42,868 nucleotides of DNA from Bacteroidia bacterium (GTDB taxonomy: Bacteria > Bacteroidota > Bacteroidia > JADZBD01). Location of the stretch: NCBI GenBank assembly GCA_020054095.1, contig JAGVMA010000033.1, positions 1 through 42,868 of the forward strand, given 5' to 3'. Made by a program: the position numbers and the translations under genes. Below are positions 1 to 5,116 of this stretch, one piece after another (within the stretch, counting starts at the first letter, position 1; each line of letters opens with the position of its first letter). The notes under the pieces are model-generated. The model made no database searches, was not told the origin of the DNA, and worked only from the letters and a program-made list of their open reading frames with translations.

Positions 1-967
<967 letters not shown>

Positions 968-1048
968 ACTTTTTTGTTGAGTTCGTAAATATTGTTTTGA
1001 TTGAATGTAGTATCTTTTTTTTCTTTATGTCAAATTTTATTTAATGCC

Positions 1049-1160
1049 TTATGGTGACTATTGCAAGGGTGTCCACCTCTTCCCATTCCGAACAGAGTAG
1101 TTAAGCCCCTTAGCGCAGATGGTACTTGGGTAACACCAGGGAGAGTATGTCGTTGCCGTT
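1049..1160 (+). rRNA. rrf: 5S ribosomal RNA
   Basis: The segment has the typical Bacteroidota 5S core, including TCCCATTCCGAACAGAGTAG and the CGCAGATGGTACTTGGG loop E region. The closing helix I is visible as GGTGAC near 1053 pairing with GTTGCC near 1153. It follows the 23S gene by about 80 AT-rich bases and is followed directly by a terminator, so it closes the rRNA operon. The ends are accurate to a few bases. Confidence 0.95.
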
Positions 1161-1166
1161 TTTATG

Positions 1167-2619: not shown

Positions 2620-3312
2620 ATGCAGCGAATTACAATAGCAATTGATGGTTATTCATCGTGTGGAAAAAGCACGATAGCAAAGGCATTGGCAACTAAGCTT
2701 GGTTACAGTTATGTTGATTCAGGGGCAATGTATAGGGCGGTTACACTGTATTGTCTAAGAAAAGGAATAATAAAAGATGCTCACTTTATAAGGGAAGAAG
2801 TGGTTAAGGCGCTTGATCACATTCATTTAAGTTTTGAATATAATTCGCACACAAAAGCATCGGATACATTTTTAAATGGCGAAAATGTGGAGAAGGAAAT
2901 TAGGCAAATGGAGGTTTCAAATAACGTAAGCCACATAAGCGTAATAAAAGAGGTGCGCGAAACGATGGCTAAGCTTCAACGCGAAATGGGCAAAAACAGA
3001 GGTGTGGTAATGGATGGGAGAGATATAGGAACAAATATTTTTCCGGATGCTGAGCTAAAAATTTTTATGACTGCCGATACTGTCATAAGAACCCAACGAA
3101 GAGTGGATGAATTAACATCTAAAGGCGTGCATGTTAGTTTCGATGAAGTAAAAAAAAATTTGCTCGGTCGAGATTATGAAGATTCGCACCGAAAAGAAAA
3201 CCCACTGAGGCAGGCAAAAGATGCCGTGGTGCTTGATAATACTGATTTGTCGCGCGAAGAACAGCTTGAGTTTGTTCTACGTTTAGTAGAAGATTTAAAG
3301 ATTTCTAATTAA
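2620..3312 (+). CDS. cmk: Cytidylate kinase
   Basis: A 230-residue CMP/dCMP kinase, which transfers phosphate from ATP to CMP in pyrimidine nucleotide recycling. The P-loop GYSSCGKST is at residues 10-18, the family motif DSGAMYRAV follows at about 33-41, and GRDIGT lies in the nucleotide-binding core at about 138-143. The length and the whole-protein match are typical of bacterial Cmk. It is a stand-alone gene here: a divergent polymerase gene lies upstream, and a short convergent gene on the other strand starts six bases after its stop. Confidence 0.96.
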   Translation: MQRITIAIDGYSSCGKSTIAKALATKLGYSYVDSGAMYRAVTLYCLRKGIIKDAHFIREEVVKALDHIHLSFEYNSHTKASDTFLNGENVEKEIRQMEVSNNVSHISVIKEVRETMAKLQREMGKNRGVVMDGRDIGTNIFPDAELKIFMTADTVIRTQRRVDELTSKGVHVSFDEVKKNLLGRDYEDSHRKENPLRQAKDAVVLDNTDLSREEQLEFVLRLVEDLKISN

Positions 3313-3318
3313 AACCGA

Positions 3319-3474
3319 TTACCCTTTTGGGCATTTATCGCAGCGCTTTTTCTTTTTATAGCGCTTGCAACATTTCTTTTTTTTAGCACACGAAAACATG
3401 CAAATCGCATTTGGTTTATCGTTGCTCACACAGTTTCGGATTCCCATATTCATCTGAGAGCAATAGTAGCTCAT
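3319..3474 (-). CDS. Cys/Lys-rich 51-residue microprotein, function unknown
   Basis: This ORF is short enough to be missed by length-filtered calling. Translation from ATG at 3474 to TAA at 3319 gives 51 residues with eight cysteines (5, 15, 25, 29, 35, 36, 45, 48), twelve lysines and three arginines. The cysteines form CxxxC (25-29), a CC pair (35-36) and a closing CDKC followed by Pro-Lys-Gly, separated by lysine blocks. That arrangement suggests a small metal-binding or disulfide-rich basic protein, possibly one that binds nucleic acid; this is inference. No signal peptide is visible. It lies 33 bases downstream of cdaA on the same strand, so it may be the last gene of a folP-cdaA unit. 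It fills the gap before the cmk stop almost exactly, leaving six bases. Codon-level structure and the regular Cys pattern argue that it is real; I do not know a named family. Confidence 0.62.
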   Translation of the reverse strand: MSYYCSQMNMGIRNCVSNDKPNAICMFSCAKKKKCCKRYKKKKRCDKCPKG

Positions 3475-3489
3475 TAATATGAGAGGGTA

Positions 3490-3509
3490 AATACCTAATT
3501 GTAGGTATT
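3490..3509. repeat. Perfect 8-bp inverted repeat across the cdaA stop codon
   Basis: AATACCTA and TAGGTATT are perfect reverse complements separated by a 4-nt loop. The arm overlaps the cdaA stop codon and sits between cdaA and the microprotein gene. Neither strand has a convincing T-run after it, so it is a weak terminator candidate. It could equally be an RNA stability or processing hairpin. Confidence 0.5.
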
Positions 3510-4290
3510 ATTTTAAGGTAGTTTCCAAAACTTCGCGAAGCATTTCGAGCGAAACATTCATTTGTAGTTTGCCATCTTTAGCAAACGAGATTTCGCCAGT
3601 TTGCTCCGATACGGATATGGCAATACAATCCGTTCCTTCTGTAATACCGGCAGCTGCGCGGTGGCGCATGCCCAAATGAGAGGGGAAGTCGGTGTTTTCG
3701 GTAACAGGTAAAACGCACCTTGCGGCTTTTATTCGGTTATCGGTAATTATTATTGCCCCATCATGCAGCGGACTGTTTTTGTAAAAAATGCTTTCAATCA
3801 TTTTTGATGTGATTTTGGCATCAATTGCATCACCAGTATTGGCATAAAAATTCAAATCGGATTTAGTGGTGATAACAATAATAGCACCTGTTTTACTATC
3901 GGCCATATTTTTACAAGCTTTGGCGATTGCTGCCAAATCAAGCCCACTTGATTTACCCATATTCCAGTTAAATATTTTTTTATTCAGCACATTGGTATCA
4001 AAAAAACCCGATGTGCCCACATAAAGTAAAAACCTGCGAATTTCTTGCTGAAAAACGATGATAATTGCAATCACGCCAACACCTATAAACTTGCCAAGTA
4101 TTTCGCTTAGCAACTCCATTTTTAGCGCCTCCACAATTTTCCAAATTAAAAAAATGGAAATTATACCAAGTACAATGTTAATGGCAGCAGTTCCTTTTAC
4201 CAAACGATAGAGCTGATACAAAAGCACTGCAACTAACAAAATGTCAATTGCATCGAGCCAAGTAAATTGTATAAATAAAGTGTTAATCAT
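3508..4290 (-). CDS. cdaA: Diadenylate cyclase CdaA (c-di-AMP synthase)
   Basis: A 260-residue membrane protein that condenses two ATP into the second messenger c-di-AMP. Three N-terminal hydrophobic segments span roughly residues 5-85. The DAC domain follows with the catalytic DGA motif (177-179) and the ATP-binding RHR motif (209-211, within GMRHRAAAG). The ATG at 4290 was chosen over a TTG at 4314 because the membrane segment follows it at the usual distance. With this start the gene overlaps the end of folP by eight bases, indicating translational coupling. No cdaR or glmM, the usual partners in Firmicutes, is next to it. The folP-cdaA pairing is, from memory, common in Bacteroidota. Confidence 0.94.
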   Translation of the reverse strand: MINTLFIQFTWLDAIDILLVAVLLYQLYRLVKGTAAINIVLGIISIFLIWKIVEALKMELLSEILGKFIGVGVIAIIIVFQQEIRRFLLYVGTSGFFDTNVLNKKIFNWNMGKSSGLDLAAIAKACKNMADSKTGAIIVITTKSDLNFYANTGDAIDAKITSKMIESIFYKNSPLHDGAIIITDNRIKAARCVLPVTENTDFPSHLGMRHRAAAGITEGTDCIAISVSEQTGEISFAKDGKLQMNVSLEMLREVLETTLK

Positions 4291-5116
4291 TTGACTGATT
4301 GGCAAAACTAACAATTTTAATTGCCTCTGAGGCTTCTTTTACATCGTGCACTCGCAAAATATTGGCTCCGTTTTTCAAGGCAATTATATGTGCTGCCGTG
4401 GTGCCGTTCAGTGCATTTTCCGGAGTAGTGTTAAGCACTTTGTAAATCATTGATTTGCGCGATAAGCCAACAAGCAACGGGAAATTCAGTTCCTTAAATT
4501 TTTCTAAATTATTAAGCAACTCATAATTGTGTTTAAGCGTTTTACCAAATCCAAAACCTACATCAATAATTAGTTGATTAACACCTTTGCTTTTTGCAAT
4601 TGAAGTACGCTGCTGCAGGTGACTGTAAACTTCTGTTGTTACATTTTTGTACTGCGGGTTTTCCTGCATATTTGTTGGTTCGCCTTTAAGATGCATAATT
4701 ACAATGGGTATATTGTTTTTTGCCGCTGTGGTAAATATATTTTCATCAGCTATGCCGCCAAAAACATCGTTAATCATATTAGCGCCTGCATTTACTGCTT
4801 GCTGTGCCACATTGCTTCTAAAGGTATCAACCGAAATAATTACATCTTGGAAATTATTTCTAACCGCAGTTATTATGGGAATGAGGCGTTCGATTTCTTC
4901 TTTTTCTGAAACAAATGCCGCACAGGGTCGGGTAGAGTAGCCGCCAATGTCAATTATTGATGCACCATCGGCTATCATTTTTTCGACATGCGCCAGTATT
5001 TTTTCTTCCGAATTATGCTTGTTGCCGTCAAAAAAAGAATCGGGTGTTACATTTAGTATTCCCATTATTTTTGGCGAAGATAAATGGAGAGTTTTATGTT
5101 TAAAATTTAACTTCAT
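4283..5116 (-). CDS. folP: Dihydropteroate synthase
   Basis: A 277-residue TIM-barrel enzyme of folate synthesis that joins p-aminobenzoate to dihydropterin pyrophosphate, the target of sulfonamides. The pterin/diphosphate motif GILNVTPDSFFDG is at 19-31, DIGGYSTRP at 56-64 and GLSRKS at 217-222, and the closing RVHDV segment is at 255-259. DVGFGFGK (185-192) replaces the more common DPGFGFGK, a mild variation. It begins a leftward unit with cdaA and is divergent from the DUF1599 gene, with only 33 bases between the two starts. A candidate -7 box for folP, TACATTTT, lies about a dozen bases before its ATG. Confidence 0.96.
   Translation of the reverse strand: MKLNFKHKTLHLSSPKIMGILNVTPDSFFDGNKHNSEEKILAHVEKMIADGASIIDIGGYSTRPCAAFVSEKEEIERLIPIITAVRNNFQDVIISVDTFRSNVAQQAVNAGANMINDVFGGIADENIFTTAAKNNIPIVIMHLKGEPTNMQENPQYKNVTTEVYSHLQQRTSIAKSKGVNQLIIDVGFGFGKTLKHNYELLNNLEKFKELNFPLLVGLSRKSMIYKVLNTTPENALNGTTAAHIIALKNGANILRVHDVKEASEAIKIVSFANQSND

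Follow-up and report, generated by a model that had tools for sequence, protein, structure and literature searches.

Does the short open reading frame that occupies the gap between two converging units, cmk and folP-cdaA, encode a real protein, and in which physiology would this protein work? We addressed this question in a window of 42,868 nucleotides, the whole stretch of contig JAGVMA010000033.1 of a Bacteroidia bacterium that was analysed, whose features are collected in Table 1. The earlier note had described in this gap a 51-codon frame with eight Cys arranged in CxxxC, CC and CxxC patterns, and this frame is present exactly as claimed.

Table 1. Features of the locus and related operator copies in the genome of the window organism.
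Feature	Position	Strand	Remarks
End of 23S rRNA gene and 5S rRNA gene	1-1161		contig start
cmk	2620-3312	plus	confirmed with Pfam and NCBIfam
51-codon ORF	3319..3474	minus	translation MSYYCSQMNMGIRNCVSNDKPNAICMFSCAKKKKCCKRYKKKKRCDKCPKG, 51 aa, 8 Cys
Probable CDS	3319..3453 (stop included)	minus	MNMGIRNCVSNDKPNAICMFSCAKKKKCCKRYKKKKRCDKCPKG, 44 aa; start predicted from the place of the -7 box and from relatives
Conserved core, CC-x8-C-x2-C-P	3328..3372	minus	CCKRYKKKKRCDKCP; resembles the FhuF C-terminal [2Fe-2S] motif, from invariance in 23 members and TIGR03950 matches in relatives with shuffle control
Bacteroidota-type -7 box	3468-3461	minus	TACTATTG; begins 15 nt ahead of the ATG (3453); relatives arranged alike
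Palindromic operator (predicted)	3490..3509		AATACCTACAATTAGGTATT; perfect (14/14), its end exactly 21 nt from the -7 box downstream
cdaA	3508-4314	minus	confirmed with Pfam and NCBIfam
folP	4283-5116	minus	upstream of cdaA; confirmed with Pfam and NCBIfam
Palindromes of the TACCTA-N4-TAGGTA set, genome G000 (the window's own)	C80:3492-3507 (window), C43:67113, C66:65013, C83:18630, C68:25652 and 25685

The coding sequence is most likely shorter than the frame itself. Since a Bacteroidota -7 box (consensus TAnnTTTG) falls within codons 1 to 7, and relatives begin just after the same box, the probable start is codon 8 (ATG 3453-3451, minus strand), yielding a 44-aa form that begins MNMGIRNC. 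Among relatives, the ATG lies 11-16 nt, in some 20-38 nt, after a similar box.

This gene belongs to a family. A first search recovered it in 9 of 60 genomes, that of the window included. With a profile built from 8 members, matches were obtained in 30 of 395 genomes of the phylum, some of them by chance, and a profile from 23 members found the gene in 87 of 395 Bacteroidia genomes (about a fifth) and 48 of 197 genera, always as one copy. In genus g23, by inference Chryseobacterium-like, it is carried by 147 of 148 genomes. Weak matches at loci L054-L061 were discarded, their frames overlapping other genes and looking like chance.

Four Cys (CC, C and C) and a Cys-Pro dipeptide are invariant in the alignment of the 23 members. 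The core K-x-CC-x-x-[YFH]-K followed by C-x2-C-P is constant with rare exceptions and the N-terminus is variable; one further upstream Cys is common in the family, and the remaining Cys of the window protein are not conserved. The CC-to-C spacing ranges from x8 to x10 and is usually x8, with x10 in two relatives (loci L053 and L246). The idea of a small, basic, Cys-rich protein binding zinc or held by disulfides was right in part: the protein is small, basic, Cys-rich and probably metal-binding, and relatives share its Cys core, but the eight-Cys pattern reduces to four invariant residues. The dN/dS ratio, which the same note had proposed to estimate, proved low: computed as pN/pS from 38 sequences, mostly from g23, it is 0.14 for the whole protein, 0.24 for its N-terminal part and 0.03 for the Cys core. 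Purifying selection acts strongly on this core; the short gene is real and encodes a conserved protein.

That so short a frame would easily be missed was also correct. Neither the window protein nor any of the 23 members matches a Pfam or NCBIfam model above cut-off, a PDB sequence search gave no match, and literature searches found no description of the microprotein family. This is a family of about 50-residue proteins without existing annotation, described by no entry of Pfam, NCBIfam or PDB, and its kind is predicted from its sequence to be that of a FhuF-like Fe-S site, as discussed below. The AlphaFold model, computed with two sequences, was poor (pLDDT 59).

The promoters of the family carry two kinds of operator. 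One is a palindrome, AATACCT-N6-AGGTATT, whose perfect copy in the window is the sole exact occurrence of this 14-base pattern in the genome. Its 21-nt spacing to the -7 box was first seen at five loci (L002, L003, L009, L031 and L037); in promoters fetched after the motif had been defined, the -7 box lies exactly 21 nt downstream in 22 of 26 bearing a palindrome of at least 11/14. Altogether, 28 of 78 family promoters display the palindrome at exactly this distance, as against 0 of 304 control segments, and other spacings are rare (28 of the 32 palindrome-bearing promoters keep 21 nt). The second operator is the Fur box ATTTAGAATTATTCTAAAT of Riemerella anatipestifer, supported there by EMSA at four promoters (PMC5609570). 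Of the 78 family promoters, 25 bear this box, in many cases 3-6 nt ahead of the -7 box; among the 304 controls, 3 do. No promoter among the 78 carries both, and 25 have neither at the thresholds used, several of these being near misses; since related species are counted, the 78 promoters are not 78 independent events. The two operators are mutually exclusive and occupy fixed promoter positions.

In this gene the palindrome precedes the promoter core, a placement which by analogy would suit an activator, and in the hemA and suf promoters it lies at or after the likely -7 box. The symmetry of TACCTA-N4-TAGGTA resembles that of NarL/FixJ-type 7-2-7 sites. No account of the palindrome turned up in a literature search. 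The MerR-like MliR was considered as its reader, and the passages searched in the paper describing it give no binding motif for comparison (PMC9478572). Rrf2/IscR-type control was considered as well and set aside for the window's genome, in which no Rrf2 protein is found at E<=1e-3; one Fur protein is encoded.

The genes sharing these operators point to iron. Exact TACCTA-N4-TAGGTA copies number four in the window's genome, before the microprotein gene, hemA-hemCD-hemB, the suf operon (sufA-like, sufB and sufC genes) and a TonB receptor gene, and a pair of one-mismatch copies of this core precedes a TonB receptor accompanied by a PepSY protein. This small set marks heme synthesis, suf and TonB receptor genes together with the microprotein frame. 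Elsewhere, the core palindrome is found before suf in genome G021 and, with one mismatch, before feoB of the same genome and suf of genome G001. In 17-nt scans for Fur boxes, the window's genome contains a single exact copy, in the suf promoter, and two Fur-box genomes contain 13 and 14 copies with at most one mismatch, versus 6 and 0 control matches. In Fur-box genomes, the arrangement of TCTAAAT with a -7 box precedes TonB receptors, a TonB receptor with HmuY, fur itself and an ECF sigma factor, and also other sites without evident iron role. At locus L145 (genome G383) it stands before a ribBA-like riboflavin gene, named by eye. In the suf promoters of three genomes (L028:3631-3690, L157 and L171), palindrome and Fur-type box lie side by side, an arrangement which suggests dual control of suf there.

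An iron-linked operator, as expected of the Bacteroidota iron regulon, is present in many family promoters: the Fur box in 25 of 78 and, in the window, the palindrome common to hem, suf and TonB genes. On these promoter sequences, it is very likely that the microprotein belongs to the iron regulon, with expression presumably turned on when iron is short. Because the operators are common to heme, suf, TonB, feoB and fur genes, iron control is the best-supported functional statement that can be made about this family.

Two other views of the locus fare poorly in the light of these results. That the frame is short, and was not found in the one other genome searched from the taxonomic family of the window organism, would fit a chance ORF or a regulatory peptide without function of its own; purifying selection (pN/pS of 0.03 in the core) and the wide single-copy conservation speak so strongly against it that we give it practically no credit. 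The earlier note favoured co-transcription with folP-cdaA and a possible link of the protein to c-di-AMP or folate physiology, and the gene does lie on the same strand directly downstream of cdaA. However, CdaA, FolP and Cmk accompany the microprotein gene at the window locus only: none is encoded near any of the 60 other family loci compared, about half of which are from g23, so that the gene is not tied to cdaA, folP or cmk and the cdaA neighbourhood is not conserved. Moreover, the intergenic gap holds the gene's own promoter and an operator common to heme, Fe-S and TonB receptor genes. Read-through from cdaA may occur at the window locus, whose arrangement is not the conserved one; a functional tie to c-di-AMP or folate is very improbable.

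What the protein would do is suggested by its Cys core. The E. coli ferric-siderophore reductase FhuF, derepressed by low iron via Fur, binds a [2Fe-2S] cluster through CC-x10-C-x2-C, a motif called unprecedented by those who characterised it (PMC8068687). Its sequence ends VRRTCCQRYRLPDVQQCGDCTLK. Like FhuF-type reductases, the microprotein has a C-terminal vicinal CC followed by C-x2-C, with basic residues before the CC, an aromatic residue or His three residues after it and, in most, Pro after the last Cys; it is also iron-regulated, as judged from its predicted operators. It differs by its size, 44 aa without any Pfam domain, whereas FhuF, of about 260 aa, includes a palm-like domain, and by its spacing, CC-x8-C-x2-C in the window protein and usually x8 in the family, with x9-x10 in some members.

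Profile comparisons go in the same direction. Weak matches to NCBIfam TIGR03950 (siderophore ferric iron reductase) were obtained from 12 of the 23 members, the best with E 0.0014, and every match itemised lies within profile positions 188-223 of 223, the C-terminal end. This likeness exceeds Cys spacing, since none of 46 shuffles with all Cys kept in place matches. On the other hand, homology to FhuF is not established: relatives reach 14.8 bits among the matches itemised, far below the cut-off of 137.9 bits, the window protein itself has no TIGR03950 match, a small HMM of the FhuF C-terminus failed to tell true members apart from shuffled sequences, 3 of 36 exceeding the 95th percentile, and individual hhalign comparisons yielded only P 0.02-0.04. 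We regard a FhuF-like Fe-S site in the microprotein as an evenly balanced proposition. Member L229 also shows a weak match to NF041379, a CYCXC family (seleno)protein (E 0.0021).

The best explanation, in which we place about even confidence, is that the microprotein is a stand-alone mini-ferredoxin with a FhuF-like Fe-S site, produced when cells starve for iron; such an electron carrier would join the regulation and the motif. Its 44 residues would probably reside in the cytoplasm, and its gene would belong to the iron-starvation regulon, being turned on under iron shortage in the window lineage by a regulator reading the palindrome at 3490-3509, and in other lineages (Weeksellaceae-like and others) by Fur reading the Fur box. 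The CC-x8-10-C-x2-C-P core would fold round a metal site whose likeliest occupant is a [2Fe-2S] cluster as at the FhuF C-terminus, and the lysine-rich surface would dock the protein to an acidic partner. Bound to its cluster, it would pass electrons for reductive iron release from siderophores, heme or stored iron, a final role that we put forward tentatively. A precedent is Bfd, the bacterioferritin-associated ferredoxin, a small Cys-rich protein which is induced by iron starvation and donates electrons for iron release. The microprotein resembles it as a small Cys-rich protein and proposed iron-starvation electron donor; its Cys spacing is different, and no Pfam ferredoxin or BFD-like model matched any of the 23 members at E<=1.

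The same core could nevertheless serve otherwise. Bacillus subtilis produces FbpA, FbpB and FbpC, small basic proteins regulated by Fur, and by analogy the microprotein might be a zinc-knuckle-like, lysine-rich RNA-binding protein silencing iron-using mRNAs in starvation. Its very basic core, small size, variable N-terminus and iron-regulon promoter would suit this role, and four Cys can also hold zinc. The likeness to the Fbp proteins is one of description (small, basic, iron-regulated), the microprotein having a conserved four-Cys core and coming from another phylum, and both the vicinal CC and the shuffle-controlled TIGR03950 matches point to a FhuF-type site instead; we consider RNA binding unlikely. 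Slightly less likely still would be a carrier or assembly factor that holds a labile cluster, Fe(II) or heme and hands it on without electron transfer. The operator common to the suf and hem operons of the window's genome would agree with such a function, as would the Cys-Pro invariant in the aligned members, which could be a heme motif, but Pfam and NCBIfam provide no sequence link to known carriers.

Beyond the choice between these roles and the mini-ferredoxin, the microprotein probably helps to handle iron when iron is scarce. It is conceivable, though for now tentative, that stand-alone FhuF-like [2Fe-2S] microproteins form a class-wide family and belong to the standard iron-starvation response of Bacteroidia. 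In many lineages this family would be placed under a non-Fur regulator which binds AATACCT-N6-AGGTATT, a site whose centre lies about 43 bp ahead of the inferred transcription start, and which also controls heme, Fe-S and iron-uptake genes. If this is true, many Bacteroidota have in common a core iron-starvation microprotein missing from family libraries. This protein would then provide the unusual FhuF-type Fe-S site in a minimal form open to testing, and the mutual exclusion of the two operators would speak for a second, so far unrecognised iron-linked regulator in the class Bacteroidia.
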